64,000 nt of DNA from Chitinispirillum alkaliphilum (GTDB taxonomy: Bacteria; Fibrobacterota; Chitinivibrionia; Chitinivibrionales; Chitinispirillaceae), in the NCBI GenBank assembly GCA_001045525.1, contig LDWW01000001.1, positions 248,001 to 312,000 of the forward strand, given 5' to 3'. Position numbers and translations under genes: made by a program. Below the pieces are notes generated by a model that was not told where the DNA came from, did no database searches, and saw nothing but the letters and a program-made list of their open reading frames with translations. The first letter of the stretch is position 1. Each line of letters opens with the position of its first letter. Positions 9,123 to 40,236 of the stretch are shown piece by piece.

Positions 9123-10331
9123 ATGAATCTGTTCCGGAAATATGTGACTGTTACTCTTTTTTCAGCCGGGTTGGCTCTGGCCGGTCAGGGGGTGGGTGTG
9201 TACGATTATTCAGATAATATGCCTCCATCCAGAACTCATCCCTCCAGTGAGAGTATTCCTGTTGAACAGGTCCCCATGTTCATTTCTTTTGGGTTTGATG
9301 ATAACGGAATAAATATACCAGGCCAGGGTGTGGACTGGATTCTCAATTACCTGAGAGACAAAACAAATCCCGGCACCGGAAACCCCGGCACCTATGATGG
9401 CGCTCCAATGAGAGCCTCATTCTATGTTACATCAAAATATGGTAAACAGTGGGTTTATCATAATTATCCTGCGATACGGCAGGGGTGGCGGGCTCTCTAC
9501 GAAGATGGTCATGAAATCGGCAATCACAGTGATATTCATCTTGGGTACTGGGACAATGATCTGCAGAAATTTTTCGAATTCAAGGGATATGATTACACAA
9601 AAGAGCAGTGGCTGGCAGAGGAACTTGATCCCTGTCATGAGTTTTTGATAAAACCATATGGAATGAATGCCCAGGCTCATGGTTTGGGTATGGAAGAGTC
9701 TGATATTTATGGGTGGCGCACGCCTCGCCTTGAGTGGAATAACGCAGTCTTTGAGGCACTCGTTGAGAGAGGCTATGTCTATGATTGCAGTATCAACAGT
9801 GAATCCGATAATGATGGCACGTCAAATTACTGGCCTTTCACAATGGATGAGGGACACCCCTTTATCGACAGCGTGGCAAGTTTTCCGGGATTTTGGCAAC
9901 TGCCATGCTATCAGTTCATGATCCCTCCAAACCTTCAGGATAAAGTGGGAACAGCTTCCATGACCGGACTTGATTACAATGTATGGGCACGTACCGACCT
10001 GGGAGGTAAGGAGTTGACTGCAGCTGAATTTACCAGGATACTTAAACACACTCTCGATTTGCGTATGGCCGGAAATCGTGCCCCCATGCTCATCGGTCTT
10101 CACAGTGACATATATTCAGAGCAAAAGGATAGTGATTATCCGGCCAGCGGTACCTACAGGGACAGACAGCTTGCTATAGAAAGGTTTGTGGATTACGCAT
10201 TGGAAACATACCCGGAAGTGAGATTTGTCCCTGCTATCGATGTGATAAACTGGATGAGAAACCCTGTTTCGCTCAGTGGCGAGCTTTCGGTTAATACTGA
10301 AAAAAAAACATTAAAAACGATCTGTCAGTAA
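9123..10331 (+). CDS. Secreted polysaccharide deacetylase-like protein (NodB/CE4 type), cut short by an apparent frameshift
   Basis: A 402-residue protein with a signal peptide (1 to about 20, ending ALAG) and a NodB-homology fold expected to remove N-acetyl groups from a polysaccharide such as chitin, using a divalent metal. Visible motifs are GFDDNG (the Asp pair), GNHSDIH (metal-binding H-x3-H), GWRTPRLEWNN (position of the R-x-P motif) and LIGLHSDIYS near the C-terminal end. GGAGG precedes the ATG. The frame ends about 18 residues after a run of nine A (10300-10308). The next frame continues directly into a typical C-terminal sorting domain, so the intact gene probably ran to 10561. It is paralogous to the gene at 10631 and is divergent from a GH8 enzyme, which suggests a shared chitin/chitosan function. 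Confidence 0.8.
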   Translation: MNLFRKYVTVTLFSAGLALAGQGVGVYDYSDNMPPSRTHPSSESIPVEQVPMFISFGFDDNGINIPGQGVDWILNYLRDKTNPGTGNPGTYDGAPMRASFYVTSKYGKQWVYHNYPAIRQGWRALYEDGHEIGNHSDIHLGYWDNDLQKFFEFKGYDYTKEQWLAEELDPCHEFLIKPYGMNAQAHGLGMEESDIYGWRTPRLEWNNAVFEALVERGYVYDCSINSESDNDGTSNYWPFTMDEGHPFIDSVASFPGFWQLPCYQFMIPPNLQDKVGTASMTGLDYNVWARTDLGGKELTAAEFTRILKHTLDLRMAGNRAPMLIGLHSDIYSEQKDSDYPASGTYRDRQLAIERFVDYALETYPEVRFVPAIDVINWMRNPVSLSGELSVNTEKKTLKTICQ

Positions 10332-10630: not shown

Positions 10631-11761
10631 TTGAAAACAGACAGGATAGATGAGTTTGGTGTGGGTGTTTACAATTATTCCGATTGCGTGAAGGCTTCCA
10701 GAGTTCATCCGGGAAGTGAGGTAATACCTGTAGAAAAAGTTCCCATGTTCATCGCGCTTGGCTTTGACGATAACGGAATTTATGACCAAAAAGGGAATGC
10801 TGCAGTTTACTGGATTCGGGATTACCTGAAAGATAAGATAAATAACTCCTCTGGAGATCAGAGCAGCACTTTTGATCAGAGCCCCGCCAGAGCTACATTT
10901 TACAATACCGCACATTATGGTATGAAAACTGTCTACTGGGATCACAGAGAGGTGAAAGCCGGCTGGCGCAGACTCTATGAAGAAGGGCATGAAATCGGCA
11001 ATCACGGTACTATGCATGTAGGATACTGGGATGAGGATAAAGAACATATTACATTTAATGGAAGAGCGTATACAAAAGAAGAATGGCTTGAAAAGGAGAT
11101 AGACCCCTGTCATGCCCTGCTCACACAACCTTGTGATCTCCAGCAGGATAAATCTGTCGGTATCGGTATCCCTGAAAAGCAGTTGTACGGCTGGCGTACT
11201 CCGCGTCTGGAGTGGAATAACGAGTTACTTTCGGCTCTGTGTGAGAGGGGTTATATCTATGACTGCAGTATGGTAAGTGATTCGGGTGATGATGGTGCAA
11301 ACCATCTTTGGCCTTTTACTCTTGATTATGGTCACCCCTGTGACTCTTCTGTGGGACGTTTTCCCGGTTTATGGGAACTGCCCTGTTATAATTATGCTCT
11401 TCCGCCTGGTTTGAGAGGCAAAGCAGGAGCTTCATCCATTCCGGGGCTTGATTATAATGTGTGGACTCACAAAAAATATGGGGGAGCAGAGTTCACTTCG
11501 CCTGAATTCACCGAAATTCTTAAATATAACCTCGACCAGCGAATACATGGAAACCGGGCTCCTATGCTTGTCGGATTACATGCTGATATATACTCTGACA
11601 TAAAAAACAAAGACTACCCCAGAAGTGGCACTGCAAGAGAGCGGCAACTCGCCATAGAAAATTTCATAGCATATGCAATTGGCACCTACCCTGAAGTGAG
11701 AATAGTTAGAGCTGTCGATGTAATCAGCTGGATGAGAAACCCTGCTGCACTTGGTGGTTAA
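10631..11761 (+). CDS. Polysaccharide deacetylase-like protein, paralogue without signal peptide
   Basis: A 376-residue paralogue of the preceding deacetylase, colinear from GVGVYNYSD to SWMRNP. It keeps GFDDNG, the H-x3-H motif as GNHGTMH, GWRTPRLEWNN and LVGLHADIYS, so it should have the same metal-dependent deacetylase fold. It differs at both ends: the start is a TTG behind AGGAG with no hydrophobic leader in any frame, and it stops right after the catalytic fold without a sorting domain. It may act in the cytoplasm on small oligosaccharides, or it may be a copy that has lost its export signals. It lies 70 bp after the first deacetylase's sorting-domain remnant. Confidence 0.75.
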   Translation: MKTDRIDEFGVGVYNYSDCVKASRVHPGSEVIPVEKVPMFIALGFDDNGIYDQKGNAAVYWIRDYLKDKINNSSGDQSSTFDQSPARATFYNTAHYGMKTVYWDHREVKAGWRRLYEEGHEIGNHGTMHVGYWDEDKEHITFNGRAYTKEEWLEKEIDPCHALLTQPCDLQQDKSVGIGIPEKQLYGWRTPRLEWNNELLSALCERGYIYDCSMVSDSGDDGANHLWPFTLDYGHPCDSSVGRFPGLWELPCYNYALPPGLRGKAGASSIPGLDYNVWTHKKYGGAEFTSPEFTEILKYNLDQRIHGNRAPMLVGLHADIYSDIKNKDYPRSGTARERQLAIENFIAYAIGTYPEVRIVRAVDVISWMRNPAALGG

Positions 11762-11898: not shown

Positions 11899-14136
11899 AT
11901 GATCAAAACTAAAAAAAATTATACCATTGGTGTCATCATGCCCTCCCTGCATGAAGGTGTGCAGTCACTGGTCTGGCCGGGTATTGCGGATACAGCAAAA
12001 AAACATGGGGTCAAGCTGGTCACCTATATGGCAACGTCGCAGGATCAGATCAGCAGCCTCGATCTGCATTATACTATTATCAGAGATTTTGTGAAAAACG
12101 GGGCTCTCGATGGATTGATAACTTTCACCGGTGCAATGGCGGAGCATCTGGGAGTGGATGAGGTAAAAGAGTACTGCAACAGCTTATCTGATTTCCCCAT
12201 TGAGGGAATTGCGTTGAGTGTGCCAAATGCACCCAGTGTTCTTGTTGATAACCGTATCGGCATAGTGCAGATTGTGGATCATCTGGTAATAAAGCACAAA
12301 CGAAAAAAAATCGCTTTTATCAAAGGTCCTGATGGGCATGAAGAGGCACAAGAGCGCTATGAGGCATATTGCGAAGGACTGAGAAAAAACAATTTACCAC
12401 TGAGAGAGGAGCTTGTTCTTCCGGGGCAGTTTCTGGATGTTTCAGGAATTGAAGGTGTTACAACTTTAATCGAGAACAATATCAGCTTTGATGCTCTCAT
12501 TACAGCTGATGACGAGACTGCTTTTGGGGCATTGAAAGAGCTGAAAAGAAGGGGAGTGAAAATTCCGGGGGATGTGGCTGTGGCGGGATTTGATGACGTT
12601 ACAGATGCTGCATATGTCTCCCCGGCACTTACCACTGTCAGACAACCTCTTTACAAACAGGGTAAAGAGGCTTTGCTTGCTGTTCTTTCTGCCTGTCAGG
12701 GTAAAAAGCAGGAAAGTATATTCCTCTCTGCTGAGCCCGTTTACAGAAGATCCTGCGGGTGCTTTCCGGAAGTTGCAGATAACACAACCGAAGGTAGGAA
12801 AAATGACATATCCAGAAATGAGGCTGCTCAGGCCGTTTTAAATATACTGGCCGGGCTCTATGATTTTTCTTCAGATGAAGTGAATATCTCACTGGAAGAT
12901 ATGGAATCACATGTTAATACTATAATCTCCTCATTCATTGAAAATGTCGAAAACGATTCCGGTAAAGAAGTTTTTCTCAATTCTGTTGATCATCTTCTTT
13001 TGGAAGCCGAGCAGAAAAATATCACTCTCACTGTCGTTCAGGGGTTGCTTTCTGCTATAGCAGGTTTCCTGCCATCTCTGTTTAAAGAGAACAGGCCTGC
13101 TGCAAGAGCTAACCACCTGTTGCAGAGAGCGATTGTGTATGTAAATGAACAGGCTGTGAGAATCACTCAGTCTCATAATATGAGAATCGCTACTCAGCAA
13201 TTGAAAATCCGCGAAACATCACAAAAGCTTATCACTACTTTTGAAATCGAGAGGCTTTTGAGAATAATCAATACAGAATTTCCGGAACTTGATATATCGA
13301 GTCTTTTCGTTGCACTCTATGAGGATTCCTCAATGCCTGTACTGATTGATCAGTGGGAATACCCAAAAACTTCATGTCTGCTTTTGGGATATCAGGGTGA
13401 GAAGACCTATGTGTTTTCCGAAGAGAACAGAATATCATTTCCCTCTGCGAAACTTTTTCCTCATAATTACTTTGATTCACAATCAATACAAAACTGTGTT
13501 TTTCTGCCTCTGTTTTTTAAAAATGAACACTTTGGGTTTATTGTGTTTGAGTATGACCAGAGCCATCAGTTTTTTATGTACGAGGAGCTTCGTTTGCACC
13601 TGAGCAGTGCAATGAAAAGTTCTTTTCTCCTTGAAGAGCTCAAAACCCAGTCGATTCACGATGAACTCACCGACCTTTATAACCGGAGAGGGTTCATAAA
13701 TCTATCAAATAAGCTGATAAAATCGGCAGGCAATGACAGAACCGCAATATGGATCTATTATGTTGATCTCGACGGATTGAAAAAAATCAACGACACTTAC
13801 GGGCATGAAGAGGGGGATTTTGCGATTTCTGCCGCCGCCCGTATCCTTACCAATACATTCAGAAAACAGGATATAATCGGAAGAATCGGGGGGGATGAAT
13901 TTACTGTGCTCGTTGTAACTGATCCAAAACAGGAGTCTGAGAGAAGCATCCTCGACAGACTTCAGAACAATATTGATCGCTTCAATGAGAAGATCGATAA
14001 ACCCTACTCTATATCAATGAGCGTGGGTATAAGCCGCTTTACCGGTAATGATGGGGAAACACTGGAATCGGTGATGAAAAGGGCCGATGATTTGATGTTA
14101 ATAGGGAAAAGGGAGAAAAAGGCAGAAAGAGAGTAG
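11899..14136 (+). CDS. LacI-type ligand-binding domain fused to a GGDEF diguanylate cyclase
   Basis: A 745-residue soluble protein. Residues 8-290 form a periplasmic-binding-protein-like domain of the LacI/GalR effector type (FDALITADDETAFGALKEL, VAVAGFDDV), but there is no DNA-binding helix-turn-helix, signal peptide or membrane helix. A helical linker (300-445) and a GAF-like region (about 450-580) follow. The GGDEF domain has an intact GGDEF motif at 664-668 and the inhibitory RxxD site five residues before it (R655-D658). Predicted role: synthesis of cyclic di-GMP from GTP in response to a cytoplasmic ligand, probably a sugar given the adjacent polysaccharide genes. No clear ribosome-binding site precedes the ATG. 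Confidence 0.85.
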   Translation: MIKTKKNYTIGVIMPSLHEGVQSLVWPGIADTAKKHGVKLVTYMATSQDQISSLDLHYTIIRDFVKNGALDGLITFTGAMAEHLGVDEVKEYCNSLSDFPIEGIALSVPNAPSVLVDNRIGIVQIVDHLVIKHKRKKIAFIKGPDGHEEAQERYEAYCEGLRKNNLPLREELVLPGQFLDVSGIEGVTTLIENNISFDALITADDETAFGALKELKRRGVKIPGDVAVAGFDDVTDAAYVSPALTTVRQPLYKQGKEALLAVLSACQGKKQESIFLSAEPVYRRSCGCFPEVADNTTEGRKNDISRNEAAQAVLNILAGLYDFSSDEVNISLEDMESHVNTIISSFIENVENDSGKEVFLNSVDHLLLEAEQKNITLTVVQGLLSAIAGFLPSLFKENRPAARANHLLQRAIVYVNEQAVRITQSHNMRIATQQLKIRETSQKLITTFEIERLLRIINTEFPELDISSLFVALYEDSSMPVLIDQWEYPKTSCLLLGYQGEKTYVFSEENRISFPSAKLFPHNYFDSQSIQNCVFLPLFFKNEHFGFIVFEYDQSHQFFMYEELRLHLSSAMKSSFLLEELKTQSIHDELTDLYNRRGFINLSNKLIKSAGNDRTAIWIYYVDLDGLKKINDTYGHEEGDFAISAAARILTNTFRKQDIIGRIGGDEFTVLVVTDPKQESERSILDRLQNNIDRFNEKIDKPYSISMSVGISRFTGNDGETLESVMKRADDLMLIGKREKKAERE

Positions 14137-17577: not shown

Positions 17578-19500
17578 ATGGGAATAAGGCGAAAATTAGC
17601 TCTGGTTATAAGTGGGATAATGATATTGTTGATCGTGGTTGTTGGCATCTTAACCCGGATGAGCCAGAACAGGTTGCTGAATATTACGATAAACAACAAT
17701 ATGGAATCAATTGTTAGTCTGGTCAATGATGTTCTTTATCAAAAGGCTTTGCAGGCAAGTTCGGTTGGCTTCACTATTGCAAACTTGCCCGTTGTAAGAA
17801 AGTCGGTAATGGAAATGGAAAGAGATGCAGTTGTTGAACAGATTGTTCCTGTCTACGATGCATTAAGGGCTGAATTGGGTGTCTCAGTAATTCATATAAG
17901 AGCACCGTATAATGTGTCATTTCTAAGGGCGCACAACATAGAACGTTATGGTGACTCTACTTCCAGACAAGCTGTTCTTTCCGCTACAGATCAGAAAAAA
18001 CCCATCACAGGTTTTGAGAGAGGGAATTACGGAATGGGAATGCGAGGGTGGGTTCCCATAATGGATGAGAGTAGAGTGATAGGAAATGTAGAAACTAATA
18101 TTGATTTTACATCTGAACTTCTGGAAGAAATAAAAAAAATATCCAATGTTGATTTGGCTGTATACGTGCCTGGTGAACAGGGCTATTCTCGATTGACAGA
18201 AACAGGCGGATTTACAACAGATGTGAATCCTCAACTCTTGTTAACTGCTGAGAAAGGGATGAGTGAGATATGGTTAGACAGAGATGGGGCACAGGTGTTA
18301 TTCCCAGTGAAAGGTTATGAAGGTGATCTGTTAGCAATTATAAGAGTTCTTATGGATATATCCGAATACAATTCTCAGATAACCTCTGAAAGCAGGCGTC
18401 TGGTGACTGTTATGTTTGTCCTGGGGCTCATTGCTACTATAATTATTTGCTCTTTAGTGAGCGTTCTGCTCAAACCTGTGGGTGTAACTACTGCTATGTT
18501 AAAGGATATTTCTGAGGGAAACGGTGATCTTACCAGACGCCTTGAAGTCAGGAGCAAAGATGAAATAGGAGAGCTCTCGGGTTATTTCAATAAATTCATA
18601 GAAAAGCTTCAGTCTCTTATTCTATCTGTAACCGGTAATGCAGATACTGTTGCAAATGCCTCTTCAGAGCTTTCTGCAACTTCCACTCATATCTCCGCCA
18701 ATGCAGAAGAGATACGTGCCCAGACATCAACCGTGGCTTCGGCTACAGAGCAGGCAACCACGAATATTAGTTCCATTTCCTCAGCAGCAGAAGAAATGTC
18801 TTTTTCAACAAACACCGTTGCCAGCGCTATCGAAGAGATGAGCGCATCGCTCAATGAAGTATCTCGAAATTGTCAAAAAGAGCTTCAGATTGCTGCCCAG
18901 GCTAATGTACATGCAAAGAACAGTAAGGAGGTAATGGATAAACTTGGCATTGCCGCTAAATCAATTGGGAAAGTGGTGGAGGTGATAAACGATATCGCAG
19001 ATCAAACAAATCTTCTTGCGCTTAATGCCACAATTGAAGCTGCATCTGCTGGTGAAGCGGGGAAAGGATTTTCTGTTGTTGCAAACGAAGTCAAAGAACT
19101 CGCCAAACAGACTGCACAAGCAACACAGGAAATAGAGGGGCAGATTACGGATATGCAATCAAATACCGAATCTGCTGTCAAGGCGATTGAGGCGGTTTCG
19201 ATGGTAATAGAAGAAGTAAATAGCATATCTCAGACTATTGTGAGTGCTGTTGAAGAGCAAAGTGCCACAATAAATGAAATAGCACAAAATGTAAGCGGTG
19301 TAAGTGCCGGTGCACAGGAAGTATCAAAAAATGTTTCGGAATCTGCAACAGGACTTACAGAAGTATCTTCCACAATTGCCGGTGTAAACAATGCTGTTGC
19401 AGATACTGCAAAAGAGATTGGACAAGTTAAATTGAGGGCTGCTGAACTGGCGAAGCTGTCGGAAAATCTAAAACTCCTATTGGGACAGTTTAGGATATAA
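17578..19500 (+). CDS. Transmembrane methyl-accepting chemotaxis protein
   Basis: A 640-residue chemoreceptor. TM1 is at about 7-27, the periplasmic sensor at 28-272 (a Cache-like fold is suggested by its size and by [14 protein letters not shown] at 150-163), TM2 at about 275-298, HAMP at 299-350 and the signalling domain to the C-terminus. The kinase-control tip has the conserved [18 protein letters not shown] and [18 protein letters not shown]. No CheR-tethering pentapeptide is present; the protein ends GQFRI. The cytoplasmic half is nearly identical to that of the receptor at 21167, so the two arose by duplication and differ mainly in the sensor. It should feed the CheA encoded downstream. 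Confidence 0.95.
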
Positions 19501-20971: not shown

Positions 20972-21166
20972 TCTCCTCACAATGGGATAAGAATAGTATT
21001 TGGGAGTTTTTAGAGATATAAACATAGGTGTCAAAAGTGGTAGTATACATGAAAATCAAACATTACAGAGGGTGAATGTGTTAACAAATTGCAATGGCAG
21101 TGTTTCATAAGTTAAATTAAAGGTTTGTGTACGGGGAAGATACGGGATAAAAAAGGAGAAGCTTGC

Positions 21167-23128
21167 GTGCTTAGAATGAAGGGTATGACTATAGGGAAAA
21201 AATTGATTGCCGGGAATTTTATACTCTTACTTTTCGTAGCGGCTGGAGTTGGGCTTGTAGCCATATGGCAGGCGTCAAATGCTCTGCAGGAACGGGTTGA
21301 GGAGATTACCCCAAGAATGGCTCAGGAAAATGCTTTGATAATCAGAGGTGTGCTGGACAAATACCTGCTTACAATGGAGGTTATGGCTTCAAATCCAGAC
21401 ATAAGATCCATGGATTGGGATAAGCAGCAGGCGAGCCTTGAAGAGCAGAAGGCTCTGGGTGGTTTTATGGGGATGGGGATTATCTTTTCTGACGGAACCG
21501 CAAAGTATCCCGATGGTACAACAGCCCGGCTGGGTGACAGGGAATATTTTAAAAAAGCAATGCAGGGAAAGGTGAACTTTTCAAATGTAATAATCTCACG
21601 GGTGACAAACTCTGCCGTGATGATGGTCGCTGCACCGATAAGAGATATGGAGGGGAATATATCTGCTGCTCTCATAGCAAGGCTTGATGCCGGGTGGCTA
21701 AGTGAGACTACGGATATGCTCGGATATGGCAAGAACGGATATGCCTATATCATTGACCGACGGGGTACCCTGATTGCACATGAGAACAGAGAGTATGTCA
21801 TGGAGCAGAAAAATTTTCTTGAAGAGGGCAGAGACAACTCTGAATACACTCGTCTCTCTGAAATGTTTCAAAGAATGATCAGCGGCAAAATTGGTTTTGA
21901 AGAGTATCCGTTTATGGGCTCGGACAGAGTCTTTGGTTATGCACCTGTTCCGGGCACCGGGTGGTCCATTGCTCTTGGGGCGTATAGAGCAGATGTGTTT
22001 AATCAGGTGGTGGTCGCACGAAATATGACAGTTGTCTTTGTACTTGTTTTCATGATTATCGGTTTTGTGGCTGCTCTCATGATTTCCAAAACTATTATTT
22101 GTCCCATAAAGCAAACCACAGATATGCTTAAAGATATTTCTGAAGGGGAAGGTGACCTTACTAAGCGGCTGGAAATCAGGAGTAAAGATGAAATCGGGGA
22201 ACTTGCCGGATATTTCAACAAATTTGTCGGAAAACTTCAAAATCTGATAGGCTCAGTTGCCAGCAATGCTGAAAATGTGGCCATTTCCGCCACTCAACTA
22301 TCTGCGATCTCAACTCAGATAGCAGCAAATTCCGAAGAGATGAGCACGCAGGCGTCTACGGTAGCCACTTCAACAGAACAGGCAACAACCAATATCAACT
22401 CCATCTCTTCTGCCGCAGAAGAGATGTCGGGTTCTGCAAATTCTGTTGCCACCGCTATTGAAGAGATGAGCGCGTCGCTCAATGAAGTTTCACGAAATTG
22501 CCAAAAGGAGCTACAGATAGCTGCTGAGGCAAATACACATGCAAAGAGCGGTAAGGATGTCATGGACAAGCTTGGTATAGCCGCAAAATCGATAGGGAAA
22601 GTGGTGGAAGTGATAAATGACATTGCGGATCAGACAAATCTCCTTGCGCTCAATGCCACTATTGAAGCAGCATCTGCCGGTGAAGCGGGAAAAGGATTTT
22701 CCGTTGTTGCAAACGAAGTCAAAGAACTTGCCAAACAGACTGCACACGCAACACAGGAAATTGAGGATCAGATTGAAGATATGCAGTCAAATACCGAATC
22801 TGCGGTTAAGGCAATAGAGGCAGTTTCTATGGTGATAGAAGAAGTAAATAGTATCTCTCAGACAATTGTGAGTGCTGTCGAAGAGCAGAGCGCCACAATA
22901 AATGAGATCGCACAAAATGTAAGCGGGGTAAGTGCCGGTGCACAGGAAGTATCTGTAAACGTATCGGAATCCGCCACCGGGCTCTCTGAAGTATCTTCAA
23001 CCATTGCAGGTGTTAATGATGCAGTAGCTGACACAGCAAAGGGAATTGTGCAGGTGAAGGCAAGTGCTGAGGAGTTGGCAAAACTCTCAGAAACACTCAA
23101 AATCCTTCTGGGACAGTTCAGGGTGTAA
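21167..23128 (+). CDS. Transmembrane methyl-accepting chemotaxis protein, double-Cache type
   Basis: A 653-residue receptor. The GTG at 21167 is chosen because AAGGAG lies 8 nt upstream; the frame is open a further 14 codons without support. TM1 is at about 14-33, followed by a periplasmic dCache sensor (about 35-265; landmarks [27 protein letters not shown] and [11 protein letters not shown]), TM2, HAMP and the signalling domain with [18 protein letters not shown]. dCache domains usually bind amino acids, organic acids or amines; the ligand here is unknown. The cytoplasmic part is a close copy of the receptor at 17578. The C-terminus (GQFRV) lacks a CheR-binding pentapeptide. Confidence 0.95.
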
Positions 23129-23200: not shown

Positions 23201-25174
23201 ATGATTACAGCACCACCAGTTCCATCTTCCCAGTCGACAATGAAAGCACTGGTGAAAGTGGATTCTGAAAAATGTGTCAATTGTCACCAATGCATATCTG
23301 TGTGTCCTTCCAAGTTTTGCAACAATGGTTCCGGTGACTACGTTGACGTCAATGCAGATCTCTGTATAGGGTGTGGGGCCTGCCTTGAAGCCTGCACACA
23401 TGAAGCCAGATCTGGAATAGATGATTTTGATGAATTTATGGCAGCCTTGCAAAACAATAAAAAAATGGTGGCTATTGTTGCTCCGGCTATTGCAGCGAAT
23501 TTCCCGGACAGATATCTCCATTTTAACGGATGGCTGAAAAGCATCGGTGTGCAGGCTGCTTTTGATGTAAGTTTTGGAGCGGAATTAACCATAAAAAGCT
23601 ATCTTGCAGCGATAAAAAAAGAGGGTTTACAACATGTAATTGCGCAACCATGCCCGGCTCTTGTGGGGTATATCCAGCTGTATCACCCGGAAATGCTCAA
23701 ATACCTTGCTCCTGCAGACAGCCCTATGATGCATACTATGAAAATGGTCCGGGAGTTCTATCCGGAGTATAAATATACTGAGTTTGTAGTAATATCGCCC
23801 TGTTATGCAAAAAGAAGGGAATTTGATGAGGTCGGTATTGGGGATTATAATGTGACATATAAATCATTCGACAACTATTTTCGCTCCAACAATATCAGTC
23901 TTTCAGGTTTCAATTCCTTACCATATGATAATCCTGAGGCTGAAAGGGCTGTTCTCTTTTCTACCCCCGGCGGGCTCTTGCGAACAGCCCAGCGCGAGCA
24001 CCCTGGAGTTGAAGCCAGTACAAGAAAGATCGAAGGCAGGCATACAATCTACCACTATCTGGACCAATTCATGGGCTCTGTGAACAGGGGAACAGCACCG
24101 ATGCTCATAGATTGCCTCAATTGTGAAATGGGGTGCAATGGTGGTCCCGGTACACTGAATGTAAGCAAATCCGTGGACGAAGTTGAGCGGCTGATCGAGA
24201 AAAGGAATATCTCTGCTCAGCAGGCTTATCTGAAAAAAGCAGGAATACTGGGCAAATATGCAGCCTTGAAGAGGTTGCGTAAACATATCGATTCACACTG
24301 GAAGCCCGGATTGTATGACAGAAGATATGTGGACAGATCTGCATTGAAACAAAAATTGCTTCGAACCCCTGGTGCAGATGAATTTGCCGAAATAAACAGG
24401 TCGATGTATAAAGAGAAAGATTCTGATATACTCGATTGCTGTTCATGCGGGTACAATACCTGTGAGCAGATGGCAATAGCCATTTTTAATGGGCTTAACA
24501 GACCAGAGAATTGCCGTCATTATCAGGAAGTACACATTGTCAAAATGCAACAAAAAGCCCAGAAAGAACTACAGCAACAACGCAAACAGGTCATATCAGA
24601 TATCAACACTTCCTTTGAGGACGCAATAGAACAGCTGGCCTCTGTTGCCGGTGCTGCAGAGGAGATGGGTGCCACGATAAATGAAATTTCAAAGAATGCC
24701 AATGAGTCAAGCGTCTCAAGTAAGGCAATAAGTACCAAATCAGAAGATATTGCAACGGTTATAGCGCAATTATCAGATTCTGCAAAACAAATTTCTGCTG
24801 TAACCGATGTCATTAGCGGTATAGCTTCACAAACAAACCTTCTCGCATTGAATGCGACCATAGAGGCTGCAACTGCAGGTGAAGCCGGAAAAGGTTTTGC
24901 TGTTGTGGCAACTGAAGTGAAAGAATTGGCAAAGCAGGCTGCAGGTGAATCCGCAGAGATCGCTCAAAAAATAGAAATGATCAAAACTCTTACAAGTCGG
25001 GCTGTAGAAAACGTTAACTCCATATCACAAACCATTAGTAATTCAGAACTGATGGTCGACGGTATCGCAACTGCAATTGAGGAACAATCCGCAGTAACAA
25101 ATTCTATGTCTCAATCTATTGCCCGGATTTTGGAAAGTGTGAAAAACGGACTAAATTTGCTAAACCGGGAATAA
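23201..25174 (+). CDS. Soluble chemoreceptor with ferredoxin and [FeFe]-hydrogenase-like H-cluster domain (putative H2 or redox sensor)
   Basis: A 657-residue protein with no signal peptide or membrane helix. Order: 2x[4Fe-4S] ferredoxin (C25-C28-C31-C35 and C55-C58-C61-C65); [FeFe]-hydrogenase large-subunit-like domain (about 88-350); a further Cys motif [18 protein letters not shown]...C438 (413-438) like an FeS domain; coiled coil; chemoreceptor signalling domain with [17 protein letters not shown] (541-557). The H-cluster cysteines are all present: C151 (AQPCPAL), C201 (SPCYAK) and C308/C312 (CEMGC). The proton-relay Cys of catalytic enzymes (first C of TSCCP) is Pro150, which argues for sensing rather than turnover. 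GAGGAG precedes the ATG. It is followed directly by cheA. Chemotaxis-linked [FeFe] proteins are known as a putative sensory class. Confidence 0.92.
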
Positions 25175-25315
25175 GAATTACCGGTCAAAGTTCAGGCTGC
25201 TCAGTAAATTGTCAAAAGATTATGGACGCAATTTAAAATGTGTCAAAAGTGAAAAGGTATGTCTGTTCACTATATAAAAAAATGGCATACCACTTCAGGA
25301 AAAAAGGTGTATAGT

Positions 25316-28111
25316 ATGTTAGAAACCGATCGCGAAATGCTCAATGAATTGATAATTGAATCAAGAGAACACCTTGAAGCCATAGAACCGGATCTTCTGG
25401 AACTTGAAAAGAAAGGAAGTAGTGTATCCCCTGAACTTATCAACAGAGTATTTCGGGCTGTACACAGTATAAAGGGAGGGTTCGGCTTTTTTGGTGTTAC
25501 AACAATTGTAAACCTCTCCCATGCAATGGAAAATGTCATGTCCAGAGTACGGGAGAAAGCGATAGAAGTCACCCCGGAAATGACAGATGCACTTTTGCAG
25601 GGTATTGATAAGCTAAGTACTCTTCTAAATGATGTAAGCGACAGTGAGAATGTCCCGGTTTCTGAGGAGATTGATAAATTATCTCCCTTCCTTGGCGGTA
25701 CAGCCCAATCATTGAGCGGAAAAACTCAGATGAGTGATTCGGGGCTTGGAGATAAGAATGATCCTGGCAGTAAATTCAGTATGCTGACTGATGAGATATA
25801 TGCTGATGTGATTAAAAATGGCAAACTGCTGTATCAGGTAACTGTGGTACCGAAAACAGATCTCTCCAACCTTAACCCAAGCGATTTATTCAAAGAGTGG
25901 GAAAAATATGGTGAAATAATTCAAACTGTCCCCGAAAGAGAATATGTTTTAAATGTAAAAGAAATCATGCAATGCGAGGAAATACTGGTCCTCTACTCAA
26001 CGGTTCTTGAGCCTGATCTTATCAACGAGTGTCTTGGACTCAATTGTGAAAGAATATTGTGTGTCGATACCGATAAATACAGAAATAAGGCAAATAATTC
26101 TCTTGATACAGAGCTCGAAGCTGCTAATGGAATTGCTGCCCCTAACGGAGAAAAAAAGAGCAGTTCACGAATCGAGGATGTGCTTAGAGTAAAGGTAAGT
26201 CTTTTGAACTCTCTGATGAACAATGCAGGTGAACTTGTATTGGCCAGAAATCAGCTGCTGCAGTTTATCGGCAGACCTTTTTCCCACCTACAGGAATCCC
26301 AGGAATTTAGTTCAGAAATAGTTAATGCGATCATCAAAACTCTGGAGAGCAGAAATCTTTTAAAATCACTGCAAAATCAGGAAGGTTTACAGGAAGAACT
26401 AAATGAAGCAGTGCTTTCCTCGATGAATTTTAAATTAAATGACATTCAGGGCGTAAATACTATTGTTCAGGGTGTTGATATGGTGACTACAGTTCTGCAG
26501 GAAGGTATCATGCAGACGAGGATGCAACCCATATCGGTGGTTTTCAGCAAATTTCCAAGAATTATCCGAGATCTTGCAAAAAATCTCGGAAAAAAAATCA
26601 ATCTCGTTCAGATCGGTCAGGATGTCGAGCTTGACAAATCTGTAATAGAGCTTCTTTCTGATCCTCTCACTCATTTGATTAGAAACTGTGCGGATCACGG
26701 TATCGAGTCTGTTGAGAAAAGGAAAAATGCTGGAAAGGATGAAACGGGGCAGGTCGTACTTAAAGCCTATCATGAGGGTGGGAAGGTAATCATTGAGATT
26801 GATGATGATGGTGCAGGAATAGATTGTGAAAAAGTTAAGCAAAAGGCTTTGGACAAAGGAATTATCACTGCAGATCAGGCCAAAAAGATTACAGATCAAG
26901 ATGCCCGGATGCTTATCTTTTCGGCTGGTTTCTCTACTGCCGAAAAAGTAACTGACGTCTCTGGAAGAGGCGTGGGTATGGATGTGGTGAGAACGAATAT
27001 TGAACGACTGGGAGGAACAATTGAACTCCAGTCGGATTTGGGAGATGGAACCAGGATAGTTCTAAAACTCCCTCTTACTCTTGCAATTGTACCATCGCTG
27101 ATTGTTGTCTGTGAGGGGAGAAAGTTTGCCGTACCTCAGGTTGGGCTTGAAGAGGTGGTGAGGGTCAGGGCTAAAGATCTGACCTCTCAAATCGAGAAAA
27201 TTCATAATTCCGAGATATTGAGACTGCGGGGGAAGCTTCTTCCTCTTGTAAGGTTGTCGGAAGTTCTCGGTCTCATACCCACATTCATACACCCTGTAAC
27301 CGGGCGCAGGGAGATAGACAAAAGAAGCAGGTTGTCAGACCGGAGAGGAACTCCGGATCAGCAGAACAAAGAGACAGACAGCGGGTTGTCAGAAAAGAGA
27401 AGTGGGAAAAAGGACAGAAGAGAATCTGTTAAAAATGCAGTCAAAATTCTTGTCCTTAAAATAGATAAAAAACGTTATGGCCTTATAGTTGGTGACATAT
27501 TAGAAAGCGAAGAGATTGTTGTAAAGCCATTACCTGAATTCCTCAAGGAAAATCAGTGTTACGCCGGGGCCACAATTATGGGAGATGGTAAGGTTGCAAT
27601 GATCATCGATGCCGGGGGGATATCAAATATGGCAAAACTCTCCTTCGATGAAGTTGACAAGGCCCTCAGGGATGACCCGACAAATACATTACACTCTGAA
27701 AATATCCAAGAAATGCTTATCTTTTCACTCGGGGGAAAAGAATCATTGGCGATAGGGCTTGATGAGATTGCGAGAATAGAAAAACGCAATTTGTCTGAAA
27801 TAGAGTTTGTTGGGGGGAAGCAATTTGTTCAAACCGGAGACACTGCTTTGGAAATTATTAGGCTGGATCAGCATATGTCTATATCTGCTGGAGAAGAGAA
27901 CTGTGATAATTCGATATTTCTGATTGTTCCCAAAAACACCCCAAGGCCGATGGGTTTTGTTGCAGCTGCGGTATGTGATACGGTGAAGTCAGTTTTTGCT
28001 CTCAATAGGGAGAATGTAAAAGGTGTAGGGATAAAAGGTACTCAGATAATTAATGAAAAGCTTACTCTGGTGCTTGATGTCCCTGCTCTTATAGAGGCTT
28101 CGGTTGATTAA
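25316..28111 (+). CDS. cheA: Chemotaxis histidine kinase CheA with two C-terminal CheW-like modules
   Basis: A 931-residue cytoplasmic kinase that passes phosphate from ATP through a His to CheY and CheB. ATG 25316 is preferred over ATG 25259 because AAGGTG lies 7 nt before it and the protein then starts at the Hpt domain. P1/Hpt (1-105) has H50 in AVHSIKGGFGFFG. A probable CheY/CheB-docking domain and the dimerization helices follow. The ATPase domain shows LIRNCADHGIES (N box), DDDGAGID and GRGVGMDVVRTNIERLGG. The CheW-like P5 module begins LPLTLAIVPSLIV, is interrupted by about 45 charged residues, and is followed by a second CheW-like module to the end. A tandem P5 of this kind is uncommon. 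It is the first dedicated che gene in the cluster. Confidence 0.93.
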   Translation: MLETDREMLNELIIESREHLEAIEPDLLELEKKGSSVSPELINRVFRAVHSIKGGFGFFGVTTIVNLSHAMENVMSRVREKAIEVTPEMTDALLQGIDKLSTLLNDVSDSENVPVSEEIDKLSPFLGGTAQSLSGKTQMSDSGLGDKNDPGSKFSMLTDEIYADVIKNGKLLYQVTVVPKTDLSNLNPSDLFKEWEKYGEIIQTVPEREYVLNVKEIMQCEEILVLYSTVLEPDLINECLGLNCERILCVDTDKYRNKANNSLDTELEAANGIAAPNGEKKSSSRIEDVLRVKVSLLNSLMNNAGELVLARNQLLQFIGRPFSHLQESQEFSSEIVNAIIKTLESRNLLKSLQNQEGLQEELNEAVLSSMNFKLNDIQGVNTIVQGVDMVTTVLQEGIMQTRMQPISVVFSKFPRIIRDLAKNLGKKINLVQIGQDVELDKSVIELLSDPLTHLIRNCADHGIESVEKRKNAGKDETGQVVLKAYHEGGKVIIEIDDDGAGIDCEKVKQKALDKGIITADQAKKITDQDARMLIFSAGFSTAEKVTDVSGRGVGMDVVRTNIERLGGTIELQSDLGDGTRIVLKLPLTLAIVPSLIVVCEGRKFAVPQVGLEEVVRVRAKDLTSQIEKIHNSEILRLRGKLLPLVRLSEVLGLIPTFIHPVTGRREIDKRSRLSDRRGTPDQQNKETDSGLSEKRSGKKDRRESVKNAVKILVLKIDKKRYGLIVGDILESEEIVVKPLPEFLKENQCYAGATIMGDGKVAMIIDAGGISNMAKLSFDEVDKALRDDPTNTLHSENIQEMLIFSLGGKESLAIGLDEIARIEKRNLSEIEFVGGKQFVQTGDTALEIIRLDQHMSISAGEENCDNSIFLIVPKNTPRPMGFVAAAVCDTVKSVFALNRENVKGVGIKGTQIINEKLTLVLDVPALIEASVD

Positions 28112-28208
28112 GGTGGCTGTTATACTGAGGCACGGGATGCACCGATAACTGCCCGAAATGAGGCAGAAGTCAAATGTGAACGAATACTCTTTTGGGTTAG
28201 GAGTCGTT

Positions 28209-28700
28209 ATGCTCAGACAATTTGCAACTTTCTATTTAGGTGACAACCTTTACGGAATAGATGTTTTGCTTATCAGGGAGATTAACCAAAACATATTCAT
28301 AACAGAGGTTGACCCCTCTCCCGATTACATTGTTGGACTTATGAATCTGCGGGGGCAGATTGTGACCATTGCTGATTTGAAGGTTAAACTTGGTGTTGAA
28401 AATGAGATCGATATTATTCCAGGTGCTAACTGCATTGTGCTCAAAACTGATGCTGAACTTGATCGTCTCAGAGATGAGGGGCTTAATGTGGGCACAACGT
28501 CAAAGGATATGGTTGGACTCATGGTCGATAAAATCGGTGACATGATTACTGTTGACGAAGAAGAGATGGAGCCGCCTCCTGCCAATGTGTTCGGTGTGGA
28601 TTGTTATTACATAAAAGGGGTTATTAAACTTGACAGACAGTTGCTTGTTGTCCTCAACATAAATAACGTCCTTTCCATGGAAAATATGTATGGAAAGTAG
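28209..28700 (+). CDS. cheW: Chemotaxis coupling protein CheW
   Basis: A 163-residue adaptor linking receptors to CheA in the polar array. ATG 28209 is chosen over a start 17 codons upstream: TTAGGAG lies 6 nt before it and the CheW fold starts at once (LRQFATFYLGDNLYGIDV). LMNLRGQIVTIADL (residues 45-58) is the conserved receptor/kinase-binding strand region, and VGLMVDKIGDMITV follows. An insertion with LDRLRDEGLNVG lengthens one loop slightly relative to the usual 150-160 residues. It lies 97 bp after cheA. Confidence 0.93.
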   Translation: MLRQFATFYLGDNLYGIDVLLIREINQNIFITEVDPSPDYIVGLMNLRGQIVTIADLKVKLGVENEIDIIPGANCIVLKTDAELDRLRDEGLNVGTTSKDMVGLMVDKIGDMITVDEEEMEPPPANVFGVDCYYIKGVIKLDRQLLVVLNINNVLSMENMYGK

Positions 28701-28781: not shown

Positions 28782-29870
28782 TTGGCTATACGGGTGATGG
28801 TTGTTGATGATACGGTTATCTACAGAAAAATAGCTTCCGAAGCACTTGGCGATTTCTCCGATGTTGAGGTTGTGTGTACTGCGCCAACGGGGGATATAGC
28901 ACTGAGGAAAATGTCTGCCAACAAAATTGATCTGGTGCTCTGTGATATAAACATGCCCGGTATGGATGGAGTTAAAACACTTGAGGCTGTCAGAAAACTT
29001 TACCCTTCGACACTTTTTGTTATGATGAGCGGAATAAATACCAGACATGCTGATGTTACGATTGAGGCTCTTCAGAAAGGTGCCCTGGATTTTATTAAGA
29101 AGCCCCAAGGCTCTTCGATGGATCAGAGCCGAAGCGAACTCAGAAACGATCTGGCTTCAGTACTAAGAATCGTTCGGATGCGCATGGGTTTAAATAAACC
29201 TCAACCGGGAGAAAAAAAGACAACCTTTGCTGTCGCCCCACCCGTATTATCGAAAACATCTCTTTCGGGTACTGCGGCTCCGATCCCTTCAAAGTTCTCT
29301 ATTCTCGCAATTGGGGTTTCAACCGGGGGACCGGAAGCTTTAAATAAGCTGATACCAAGTCTTCCGTCTTCTTTCCCGGTCCCTGTTGTTATAGTGCAGC
29401 ATATGCCTGTTGGCTTTACAAAATCGCTTGCAGAAAGTCTCAACAAGAAATCTAAGCTTACTGTTGTTGAGGCGCAAAACGGGGATGTCGTATTGCCTGG
29501 AAAAGTATATGTAGCTCCCGGTGGAATACATATGACGGTTCGATCAAGAGATAATGCAACAATCATCGGACTGGATGATGGTCCTGCAGAAAACAGCTGT
29601 AAACCTGCTGTAGATGTGCTGTTTAGGTCTGTTGCATCTGTTTTTGAAAGTAAAGGTGTTTTGTCAGTCATACTTACCGGTATGGGATCGGACGGAGTAA
29701 AAGGGGTAAAGGCTCTCAAAAAGAAGGGGTGTTACAGTATCACTCAGTCCGCATCCAGTTGTGTTGTGTATGGAATGCCCAAAGCAGTCGATGATGAGGG
29801 GTTATCTGATAAGTCAGTAGATTTGGATACTATTCCTATTGAAATTTGTAGAGTTTTGAGGATATCTTGA
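28782..29870 (+). CDS. cheB: Chemotaxis protein-glutamate methylesterase CheB
   Basis: A 362-residue response regulator with a receiver domain (1-125; D55 in LVLCDINMPGMDG is the phosphoacceptor), a proline/serine linker and a C-terminal methylesterase. The catalytic triad is visible: Ser in GVSTGGPEAL, His in VQHMPVGFT and Asp in GMGSDGVKG. It removes methyl groups from receptor glutamates during adaptation and may deamidate glutamines, which matters because I see no cheD in this cluster. Start is TTG 28782, with AAGGAG 6 nt upstream. Confidence 0.95.
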   Translation: MAIRVMVVDDTVIYRKIASEALGDFSDVEVVCTAPTGDIALRKMSANKIDLVLCDINMPGMDGVKTLEAVRKLYPSTLFVMMSGINTRHADVTIEALQKGALDFIKKPQGSSMDQSRSELRNDLASVLRIVRMRMGLNKPQPGEKKTTFAVAPPVLSKTSLSGTAAPIPSKFSILAIGVSTGGPEALNKLIPSLPSSFPVPVVIVQHMPVGFTKSLAESLNKKSKLTVVEAQNGDVVLPGKVYVAPGGIHMTVRSRDNATIIGLDDGPAENSCKPAVDVLFRSVASVFESKGVLSVILTGMGSDGVKGVKALKKKGCYSITQSASSCVVYGMPKAVDDEGLSDKSVDLDTIPIEICRVLRIS

Positions 29871-30018: not shown

Positions 30019-30867
30019 ATGCCAGAGCACACTAAGATAGACATTGCGGAATTCAGACTGATGCGCGATTATATTGAGAAATACTGCGGGATTAGTATAA
30101 AAGAAGAGAAGGTTTACCTTCTTGAAACACGCCTTGGCTCGCTTATGACCGAAAGCGGGTGCAGCAATTTTCGGCAGTTTCACCGCAAAGCAGTAGATGG
30201 TTCTGATGGTAAACTGAGGGAGAAAATTATCGATGCAATGACAACAAACGAGACCTTGTGGTTTCGGGATTCATCACCTTTTGTCATTCTTGATGATGTA
30301 CTTCTCAAAGAGTTTCATGAACAGGTCAGGAGTGGGAAAAAATCAAAAATCAGGATATGGAGCGCAGCCTGTTCGACCGGCCAGGAGCCTTACTCTATAG
30401 CCATGACTATACATGATTACATAAAAGCTCACTCAGGGATCTCATCTGACAAATTTGAAATTGTTGCAACAGATATCTCTCCAACAGTGCTCTTTACAGC
30501 CATGGCCGGTAGGTATGATGGATTCGCGATATCCAGAGGACTTCCCGGTGCTATGCTTGATCGCTATTTCACACAATCAGGAAATGTATGGATAATAAAA
30601 GATCAAATCAAAAGGATGGTTCAGTTCAAAAAACTTAATCTTCAGGATAATTTCTCAACGATAGGGAAACCTGATCTTATTTTCTGCAGAAATGTACTTA
30701 TCTATTTTTCTGAGGAATTTAAAAAAAACATTCTCAGGAGAATGGCATCATTGCTGCGTCCGGGGGGATATCTGTTTCTGGGTGCATCGGAGTCGATCAA
30801 TAACTACTCTGCAGAATATGAAATGCATCGTCATAGCCGTGGCCTTTATTACAGGGTCAGAGAATAG
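30019..30867 (+). CDS. cheR: Chemotaxis receptor methyltransferase CheR
   Basis: A 282-residue SAM-dependent O-methyltransferase that methylates receptor glutamates. The N-terminal helical domain contains TTNETLWFRD (about 74-83); the SAM-binding core has IRIWSAACSTGQEPYS and IVATDIS; FCRNVLIYF is the typical catalytic-domain motif. ATG 30019 has no strong ribosome-binding site. The receptors in this window lack the C-terminal pentapeptide used for CheR tethering, so methylation must proceed without that tether. It is separated by 148 bp from cheB. Confidence 0.95.
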   Translation: MPEHTKIDIAEFRLMRDYIEKYCGISIKEEKVYLLETRLGSLMTESGCSNFRQFHRKAVDGSDGKLREKIIDAMTTNETLWFRDSSPFVILDDVLLKEFHEQVRSGKKSKIRIWSAACSTGQEPYSIAMTIHDYIKAHSGISSDKFEIVATDISPTVLFTAMAGRYDGFAISRGLPGAMLDRYFTQSGNVWIIKDQIKRMVQFKKLNLQDNFSTIGKPDLIFCRNVLIYFSEEFKKNILRRMASLLRPGGYLFLGASESINNYSAEYEMHRHSRGLYYRVRE

Positions 30868-30942: not shown

Positions 30943-31039
30943 ACCAGAAAATGGAAGAGAAACACGAGTTAGGGAATCAAGAGTTCTGGAATAGCTTCAA
31001 GAAGTTTTTATATTACATATATCAGGAGTGGGATTTACA

Positions 31040-31507
31040 ATGGATGTATCTTATGTTAACCCTTTTATAACTGCAACAGTCGAAACATTTAAGACGATGC
31101 TCAATTGTGAATTAAAAATGCAAAAACCAGTTTTGAAAATGGACGCCAAACATCAGTTTGATGTTTCGGGGGTCATTGCACTTACAGGACAAGCACAGGG
31201 AATTATTGCGTTGAGTTTCCCAAAAGTTTTGGCTCTGAAGTATGTTTCCATTATGCTTGGAACTGAGATAAAAATTGTGGGAGCGGATTTAACCGACGCT
31301 ATCGGAGAAATCGCCAATATCGTAGCCGGGTATGCCAAGCAGTATCTTACAGAGTACAAACTTACAATCAGTTTGCCGAATGTGGTCATCGGGAAAGACC
31401 ATCGGATAGCTGTTCCCAAAGGTGTCCCAACCATGGTTGTCCCCTTCAACAGCACGCATGGTGAGTTTGCTATGGAAGTTGCCCTGAAAACTGCTAAGAA
31501 AGGATAA
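31040..31507 (+). CDS. cheX: CheY-P phosphatase, CheX/CheC family
   Basis: A 155-residue protein of the CheC/FliY/CheX phosphatase family, expected to dephosphorylate CheY-P and end the flagellar signal in organisms without CheZ. ATG 31040 is used; a GTG 12 nt earlier overlaps the AGGAG ribosome-binding site. The single ExxN active-site helix is visible as DAIGEIANIVAGYAKQ (about 88-103); CheX proteins have one such motif whereas CheC has two. The length fits CheX. It ends 2 bp before cheY, so the phosphatase and its substrate are translated together. Confidence 0.9.
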   Translation: MDVSYVNPFITATVETFKTMLNCELKMQKPVLKMDAKHQFDVSGVIALTGQAQGIIALSFPKVLALKYVSIMLGTEIKIVGADLTDAIGEIANIVAGYAKQYLTEYKLTISLPNVVIGKDHRIAVPKGVPTMVVPFNSTHGEFAMEVALKTAKKG

Positions 31508-31509
31508 AT

Positions 31510-31866
31510 ATGAAAATATTATTGGTCGATGATTCTGTCACAATGAGAAGAATTCAGAAAACACAATTGACATCGCTAAACCTTACAGATATACTGGAAG
31601 CTGGCGACGGGGAACAGGCATTTAAGATGTTGGAGCAAAATATGCCTGTAGATCTGATACTTCTCGATTGGAACATGCCGGTCATGGATGGTCTGACTTT
31701 CCTGAAAAAGGCTCGATCCGATTCAAAATATAAAGATGTCAAAATATTCATGTGTACTTCAGAATCTGAAAAATCAAGGGTGGTGGAAGCAATCGGTGCC
31801 GGAGCAAATAATTATATTGTAAAGCCTTTTACTCCTGAGGCATTGAAAACTAAACTTGGTTTGTGA
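31510..31866 (+). CDS. cheY: Chemotaxis response regulator CheY
   Basis: A 118-residue single-domain receiver that binds the flagellar switch when phosphorylated by CheA. Visible are the acidic pair (VDDS, 6-9), phosphoacceptor D53 in LLDWNMPVMDG, the Thr/Ser switch in MCTSES and the conserved Lys in IVKPFTPE. It has no output domain. Start ATG lies 2 bp after the cheX stop. It closes the chemotaxis operon; the next gene is on the opposite strand. Confidence 0.95.
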   Translation: MKILLVDDSVTMRRIQKTQLTSLNLTDILEAGDGEQAFKMLEQNMPVDLILLDWNMPVMDGLTFLKKARSDSKYKDVKIFMCTSESEKSRVVEAIGAGANNYIVKPFTPEALKTKLGL

Positions 31867-39387: not shown

Positions 39388-40236
39388 ATGCGTATCAATC
39401 ATAACATTTCATCAATGGTAACTCAGGGAACCCTTAACAGAGTTAACCGCGAGATGTCCACTTCTCTTGAACGGTTGTCTACAGGTCTTCGTATTAACCG
39501 TGCAAGTGATGATGCTGCAGGTCTTGGTGTTTCTGAAAACCTCCGTACACAGGTCAGAGGTACAGCTCAGGCAAGACGTAATGCTCAGGACGGTATCGCT
39601 GCCCTTACTATTGCTGAAGGTGCTGCAAACGAGATTTCTGATATCTTACAGCGTATGCGTGAACTGGCTGTGCAGTCTGCTAATGACACTCTTACAGACA
39701 CAGAACGGGCGTACACCAATCAGGAGTTTCAGCAGCTTATTTCTGAAATCGACCGTATCGCGGAAGTTACCAACTACAATGGTATGAAACTGATCTCTGA
39801 TACAGAAGGTCACACTACCAATACCAGGTTTGGAGTTGGTGAAGGATCAAATGTGTGGATTGATGCCAATGCAAGCGATAGTGACAGAATTCAGGTCCAG
39901 ATTGCAGTTCTCTCAACAGAAGGTCTGAACATTGATGATCAGGACCTTACTGATCAGGCTTCTTCTGTGGAGGCTATCACAGCGCTGGATGCAGCCATTG
40001 ACGATGTGAACACTATGCGTTCTGATATGGGAGCTTACATCAATCGTTTGGATCATGCAATTAACAACCTGACAATCTCCAATACTAACCAGCAGGCTGC
40101 AGAATCTCTGATACGTGATGTGGACTTTGCTCACGAGAGTTCAAGATTCACCCGTAATCAGATCCTGACTCAGTCCGGTACAGCTATGCTTGCTCAGGCA
40201 AATATGGTTCCTCAGAGTGTATTGTCACTCATCTGA
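39388..40236 (+). CDS. fliC: Flagellin
   Basis: A 282-residue flagellar filament subunit. The conserved N-terminal D0/D1 half (MRINHNISSMVTQGTLNRVN; LSTGLRINRASDDAAGLGVSE) and C-terminal half (IRDVDFAHESSRFTRNQIL; QANMVPQSVLSLI) are joined by a very short central part, so the exposed D2/D3 domains are absent. ACAAGGAGG lies 8 nt before the ATG, a near-perfect ribosome-binding site. Exported through the flagellar secretion system without a cleaved signal. It is preceded by a sigma-28-like promoter and followed by a terminator, so it is monocistronic. Symbol assigned by family (fliC/hag type). Confidence 0.95.
   Translation: MRINHNISSMVTQGTLNRVNREMSTSLERLSTGLRINRASDDAAGLGVSENLRTQVRGTAQARRNAQDGIAALTIAEGAANEISDILQRMRELAVQSANDTLTDTERAYTNQEFQQLISEIDRIAEVTNYNGMKLISDTEGHTTNTRFGVGEGSNVWIDANASDSDRIQVQIAVLSTEGLNIDDQDLTDQASSVEAITALDAAIDDVNTMRSDMGAYINRLDHAINNLTISNTNQQAAESLIRDVDFAHESSRFTRNQILTQSGTAMLAQANMVPQSVLSLI

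Follow-up and report, generated by a model that had tools for sequence, protein, structure and literature searches.

The case that [FeFe] hydrogenases act as sensors has so far rested on PAS domains and slow turnover. In the window, that is, the whole 64,000-nucleotide stretch of DNA of the anaerobic bacterium Chitinispirillum alkaliphilum analysed here, one gene encodes a hydrogenase-type H-cluster domain and a chemoreceptor signalling domain in a single chain. It raises the question of whether an H-domain serves as the input of a chemoreceptor and, if so, to which stimulus it responds. Such an output gives sensory [FeFe] hydrogenases a measurable behavioural readout. It was concluded that the protein is probably a cytoplasmic chemoreceptor with a low-turnover sensory [FeFe] H-domain as its input, an H2 or redox cassette feeding the CheA of the host. 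Within this reading, we infer the occupancy of the H-cluster, H2 as the ligand or stimulus, the CheA partner and the sign of the response.

Layout of the gene and its chemotaxis cluster

The first-pass annotation had described two ferredoxin sites, an H-domain and a chemoreceptor domain in one frame. This was confirmed by the open reading frame and the Pfam matches, and the residues named there (C151, C201, K204, C308, C312 and Pro150) were all found in the sequence. The features of the gene were as follows:

23201..25174 (+): [FeFe] H-domain chemoreceptor, 657 aa, soluble (ORF with ATG start, Pfam, hydropathy)
23273..23395 (+): two ferredoxin-type [4Fe-4S] sites, residues 25-65, with C25, C28, C31, C35, C55, C58, C61 and C65 (two Pfam Fer4 matches)
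23459..24148 (+): H-cluster domain, residues 87-316 (Fe_hyd_lg_C, E 1.2e-29, 104 bits; Pfam cut-off 22.1 bits)
23645..23665 (+): L1 motif Q149-P-C151-P-A-L-V155 (P150 at the CpI C299 position, C151 at CpI C300)
23795..23821 (+): L2 motif S199-P-C201-Y-A-K204-R-R-E207 (S199 at the CpI M353 position)
24110..24145 (+): L3 motif D304-C305-L306-N-C308-E-M-G-C312-N-G-G315 (C305 at CpI 496, L306 at the CpI M497 position)
24437..24514 (+): C-terminal cluster site C413-x2-C416-x4-C421-x16-C438 (motif as in PMC8163306; Pfam, alignment)
24659..24664 (+): methylation-like site E487-E488 (pattern match)
24755..25144 (+): MCP signalling domain, residues 519-648, kinase-contact tip at about 551-580 (MCPsignal, E 1.2e-29)
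25079..25084 (+): methylation-like site E627-E628 on the opposite arm (pattern match with one relaxed position, the last)

Homology to the relatives began at about Met14, therefore translation may start at 23240 and not at 23201. No transmembrane segment was detected, as had been claimed: the 19-residue hydropathy maximum was 1.07, compared with 3.2 and 3.0 in the neighbouring membrane MCPs, and the protein was therefore regarded as soluble. Neither PAS nor HAMP was matched by Pfam between the C-terminal cluster and the receptor hairpin, and no NCBIfam model scored above its cut-off among the matches listed. The architecture is not a chance one, because 18 relatives aligned to the protein over its full length with 42-49% identity and with every cluster ligand invariant.

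The neighbouring chemotaxis genes, assigned by Pfam, were:

17578..19500 (+): membrane chemoreceptor MCP1 (dCache_3, HAMP, MCPsignal)
21125..23128 (+): membrane chemoreceptor MCP2 (dCache_1, HAMP, MCPsignal)
25259..28111 (+): CheA (Hpt, H-kinase_dim, HATPase_c, CheW repeats)
28158..28700 (+): CheW
28782..29870 (+): CheB
30019..30867 (+): CheR
31028..31507 (+): CheX phosphatase
31510..31866 (+): CheY

The cheA gene started 84 bp 3' of the H-receptor gene and was followed on the same strand by cheW, cheB, cheR, cheX and cheY, which bears out the placement directly upstream of cheA in a complete che cluster. Promoter and terminator scans gave hits at the chance level only and have no bearing on an operon. 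The genome (4,434,773 bases in 160 contigs) encoded four CheA-type kinases and ten MCPs. The first-pass annotation had the protein signal directly to CheA, with a clear output path; a CheA-coupled output is indeed likely, but with four CheA-type kinases it is not certain.

Strain ACht6-1 is described as a flagellated, H2-producing chitin fermenter that has type IV pili (PMC4814513). These pili, together with the numbers of CheA kinases and MCPs, would suit an output other than swimming: the cluster might control gene expression, pili or attachment to chitin, or the H-receptor might act on a CheA that does not serve the flagellar motor. We consider such an output quite unlikely, since the cluster has CheX, a lone CheY, CheB and CheR, a set typical of motility systems, and since a flagellin-like gene (39388-40236, read from its translation) lies about 7.5 kb downstream of the che cluster.

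Some further genes of the window were recorded as separate observations. At 61826-63595 (-), IspH (LytB, E 4.9e-89) and a UbiA-type prenyltransferase domain (8.5e-14) shared one frame; this fusion of isoprenoid synthesis with a membrane prenyltransferase looks unusual. At 42117-42932 (+), 5-formyltetrahydrofolate cyclo-ligase (5e-44) carried an in-frame N-terminus of the TatA/B type (E 7e-7); the gene immediately before it was TatC-like. The gene at 11899-14136 (+) combined a LacI-type sugar-binding domain with GGDEF, showed no DNA-binding match and is possibly a sugar-responsive diguanylate cyclase; it adjoins two polysaccharide-deacetylase-like genes. The tandem genes at 9123-10331 and 10631-11761 (+) encoded similar proteins, the first having no Pfam match and the second weakly resembling polysaccharide deacetylase.

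The H-cluster domain and the maturation genes

The structure prediction proposed in the first-pass annotation returned the fold of solved [FeFe] hydrogenases. An AlphaFold2 model (19 sequences, mean pLDDT 73) matched the [FeFe] hydrogenase CbA5H (8zqd) with a Z-score of 35.5 and an rmsd of 3.5 over 346 aligned residues; the structural matches spanned mostly residues 11-384, and the fold comparison is limited to that part.

A tree of 92 H-module rows separated a receptor-type set of 54 (47 fused to a receptor, 4 to PAS, 3 to a kinase) from 32 rows of the kinase/PAS type by a branch of 1.15 with a support of 100. The window protein was placed in a 31-row sub-clade of the receptor-type set, here called alpha (support 99). 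The architecture labels came from our own receptor-domain profile and a kinase query and were Pfam-checked on 20 proteins; beyond these, a PAS-like label denotes a tail with neither a receptor nor a kinase match.

The group A signature, a relay Cys at CpI 299 with Met at 353 and 497, was replaced by Pro150, Ser199 and Leu306 in the window protein. Hence its H-domain combined the absence of the group A relay Cys with the presence of the four Cys ligands, as in the HydDB definition of group C2. Pro occupied position 299 in 54 of 54 receptor-type rows, and the 32 kinase/PAS-type rows had Ala (13), Pro (7), Ser (5), Cys (5) or Thr (2). Position 353 was Ser or Thr in all 54 receptor-type rows as opposed to Gly in 31 of the 32 others, and position 497 was Leu in 54/54. 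The active site of the receptor-type set is thus Pro299, Ser353 (Ser/Thr) and Leu497 in CpI numbering. In addition, Cys was found at CpI 496 (C305) in 31/31 alpha rows and was not among the common residues elsewhere.

The first-pass annotation had stated that catalytic [FeFe] hydrogenases need the relay Cys. This was too strong, as TmHydS and TamHydS have Ala in its place and still turn over slowly, and about 10% of sensory sequences carry Pro there (PMC10055695). Sensory H-domains devoid of the relay Cys still hold an active, slow H-cluster (PMC8163306, PMC10055695).

It could be argued that the receptor is a relic that binds only [4Fe-4S] clusters and uses the H-fold as a scaffold for sensing oxygen, CO or redox state. 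The uniform Pro at the relay position, the departures from group A at 353 and 497 (and at 496 in alpha) and six genomes of relatives in which hydG was not found would agree with such a loss. We hold it to be highly improbable, because the H-cluster, ferredoxin and C-terminal Cys ligands were invariant in 86/86 aligned group C-like proteins and the L2 Lys (K204) was kept in 85/86, across very divergent sequences, and because an active H-cluster is present in HydS enzymes that carry comparable changes (PMC8163306, PMC10055695). The maturation genes also speak against a relic. A genome search for hydE, hydF and hydG, suggested in the first-pass annotation, found all three above curated cut-offs, in one cluster on contig C24 beside the bifurcating hydrogenase HydA, so the objection of missing maturases falls away.

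Four H-domain proteins were encoded in the genome: the bifurcating HydA, a pair on contig C28 and the window protein. One member of the C28 pair was a group B-like enzyme and the other resembled HydS, and a phosphatase-like gene separated the two (read by eye). The genome description gives two hydrogenase clusters, and no mention of the window protein was found in the passages of it that were searched (PMC4814513). Further, HydG exceeded its cut-off in 24 of the 30 genomes tested, almost all of which hold H-receptor relatives, and in 7/7 of those of good quality; the 6 of 30 in which it was not found above the cut-off were without exception termite-gut treponeme or spirochaete MAGs whose completeness is not stated. 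In one genome of the same phylum (G052), hydG (C45:4164-5576) directly followed a sister-clade H-receptor gene, L055 (1480-3186; 570 aa, H-module at C45:2466-3680, short receptor tail of 158 residues), an argument for the presence of an H-cluster in receptors of this kind.

A second possibility is a redox, or energy-taxis, receptor in which the N-terminal clusters report how reduced the ferredoxin/NADH pool is; the H-cluster would then be a sensitive redox-poised site or a proton leak, and H2 not the relevant stimulus. All eight Cys of the two ferredoxin-type sites were invariant in 92/92 aligned rows. The ferredoxin state would be a meaningful internal signal in a fermenter with a bifurcating hydrogenase (PMC4814513), and the reactions of sensory H-domains are slow, with reduced states being stabilised (PMC8163306, PMC10055695). 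We regard this as unlikely, although deserving some weight: keeping the entire H-domain, every ligand and the L2 Lys included, would be costly if redox alone were read, when a simpler FeS or PAS domain would suffice.

Distribution and separate histories of sensor and tail

In a scan of one genome per species, the H-module was encoded at 26 loci in Brevinematales, termite-gut Treponema, Ignavibacteria and Bacteroidota, and at most of these the match ran from residue 14 to roughly 640; one more locus, the 27th, aligned with the signalling part alone. Searching whole genomes for the H-module brought in other Fibrobacterota, Clostridia and the phylum of the Ignavibacteria locus. Full-length relatives were found in Spirochaetota, many of these coming from termite guts, as well as in Ignavibacteria, Bacteroidota, Clostridia and other Fibrobacterota. 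Within Fibrobacterota, 41 of 168 genomes had some H-domain match, catalytic ones included, and 11 had the close type (at least 585 bits).

The arrangements around the module varied. In two Brevinematales (L017, L019) the H-receptor gene was followed by CheB-like, CheR-like and receiver genes, a neighbourhood unlike that of the window. In Kapaibacterium (L041, 1965-6008) the same H-module, 55% identical, headed a hybrid histidine kinase of 1348 aa with PAS, two receivers and Hpt, and its contig also carried hydG, at a distance of about 5.6 kb. Four other Fibrobacterota loci (L048, L049, L050, L051) had an alpha H-module with PAS or a short tail in place of the receptor, the PAS output being seen in L049 and L050 and a partial PAS in L048; the output was therefore exchanged within the clade. 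An H-module on a hybrid kinase or on PAS is as expected of a sensor input.

The two halves of the window protein were related to different proteins. Its H-module was 49-59% identical to alpha relatives of every phylum. Its tail was 38-43% identical to MCP1, MCP2 and the Fibrobacterota H-receptors L045-L047, and mostly 23-36% identical to other tails. In the H-module tree the window protein was sister to the termite treponemes (support 97). In the tail tree, which omits two spirochaete tails (L035 and L039, missed by the tip pattern) and in which several tails are long branches, the window tail grouped with MCP1, MCP2, two more receptors of its own genome and L045-L047 (support 95.7). A single clade of all H-receptor tails was rejected (AU p 0.018), as was an H-module clade of the window protein with L045-L047 (AU p 0.0039); both p-values are optimistic because the clades were named after seeing BLAST results or a first tree.

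Sensor and output therefore have different histories, the H-module going with termite treponemes and the tail with chemoreceptors of its own genome. The idea of a single receptor fusion inherited throughout was dropped: on the tree the output labels must have changed several times, and the tails are not monophyletic. These split histories, and the occurrence of the module on a hybrid kinase or PAS as well, favour the view that the H-module is a portable sensor cassette joined to host-compatible outputs. That the tail groups with own-genome receptors is in keeping with selection for coupling to the arrays of the host.

Proposed signal transfer and known systems

The first-pass annotation had seen an extra CxxC-rich FeS domain at 413-438 and suggested that it may relay electrons. 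The domain is not extra, as it corresponds to the C-terminal Cx2Cx4Cx16C site described for HydS enzymes; Pfam FeS PF04060 matched residues 411-439 with an E-value of 1.5e-4, slightly below its cut-off. A distinct Cys-rich motif of C413, C414 and C416 was also considered and dropped, C414 not being conserved. The relay was unsupported as put, since in TamHydS H2 does not reduce the C-terminal cluster, and with that cluster altered catalysis stays close to that of the wild type (PMC13104023). At this step a conformational signal was therefore favoured over an electron relay. A helix predicted at 439-478 starts right after C438 and leads into the receptor hairpin; the linker and tail parts of the model are of low confidence, with a mean pLDDT of 33-58 over 461-510. 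The receptor arms had about 107 residues per side of the tip, compared with 137 in MCP1 and 158 in MCP2. The kinase-contact tip closely resembled those of MCP1 and MCP2, the signalling hairpin being conserved (Pfam).

For a chemoreceptor with a sensory H-domain, the following sequence of events was proposed. HydE, HydF and HydG, encoded elsewhere in the genome, would mature the H-cluster in the receptor. H2 produced by fermentation in the cell itself or by its neighbours would reach the H-cluster and shift its redox and protonation state, and electrons could equilibrate between the H-cluster and the two N-terminal clusters, judging by HydS biochemistry. A conformational signal would then pass the C-terminal cluster domain, the last ligand of which sits at the start of the receptor-hairpin helix. 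The hairpin tip would set the activity of the adjacent CheA and, through CheY-P, act on the flagellar motor, and CheR and CheB with the two methylation-like sites would provide adaptation. Swimming away from H2 might be expected, because the organism is an H2-producing fermenter.

A more specific proposal is a true H2 chemoreceptor, in which an H-cluster in an unusual pocket (Pro299, Ser353, Cys496, Leu497) binds H2 and this binding directly drives swimming towards or away from the gas, the cassette having moved between phyla and been rejoined to a receptor tail, kinase or PAS output of each host. We advance it tentatively, at somewhat under an even chance. If the sensing is real, it would give a molecular basis for the H2-guided movement of anaerobes, for example in termite guts and in the sediments of soda lakes, habitats in which fermentation yields and syntrophy depend on H2, and would provide a sensor part that evolution has already moved between output domains.

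TmHydS of Thermotoga maritima (group C, M2f) likewise has two N-terminal clusters, no relay Cys and the C-terminal Cx2Cx4Cx16C site. It differs by a PAS domain and by Ala299, Gly353 and Ser497 (PMC10055695, PMC8163306), whereas the window protein has no PAS, has Pro, Ser and Leu at these positions and is fused to a chemoreceptor tail. TamHydS of Thermoanaerobacter mathranii (group D, M2e) shares the lack of PAS, the C-terminal cluster, Ser353 and Leu497 (PMC8163306) but stands alone, having no output domain, and has Ala299. Its proposed proton path starts at E252 (PMC10407848); by our own mapping, this column holds Leu259 in the window protein and Val in 6/6 group A/B rows of an alignment having no group D row. 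The active site of the window protein looks more like group D than like TmHydS, because Ser353 and Leu497 are the residues reported for TamHydS. From termite-gut Treponema, the H-modules of which are sister to that of the window protein, Ballor, Paulsen and Leadbetter in 2012 reportedly described hydrogen sensor/transducer proteins, likely acting through phosphorelay or methylation pathways and possibly in chemotaxis.

The first-pass annotation had held that H2 taxis has little or no proof. For [FeFe] receptors this stands, as no report of a tested function was found in the literature for a C2-type protein; it does not hold in general, H2 taxis having been reported for the archaeon Methanococcus maripaludis, not via an [FeFe] receptor (Brileya 2013, as cited in PMC4266047). 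The sensory role of [FeFe] hydrogenases has been termed putative, with physiological evidence lacking (PMC8924675). In a clostridial genome survey of 2022, the C2 hits did not survive validation and were discarded (PMC9431212). We read this as a warning that part of the C2 assignments made elsewhere may stem from nothing more than the receptor domain; that of the window protein does not.

The closest known kind is HydDB [FeFe] group C2 of 2016, labelled 'Chemotactic (putative)', of undetermined role and suggested to sense H2 via MCPs (PMC5037454), which agrees with the earlier remark that chemotaxis-linked [FeFe] proteins are classed as putatively sensory. On a fusion of an H-domain with an MCP, nothing was found in the literature beyond this class line and its users. 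The gene would belong with C2 by the published description of that class. Both have a sensory-type H-domain linked to a methyl-accepting chemotaxis protein, here in one chain; two sub-clades, Cys at 496 and a separate history of sensor and tail were not found in the literature on C2. The C2 kind is already known, if uncharacterised; the present analysis adds to it the two clades, the residue signature and the split history.
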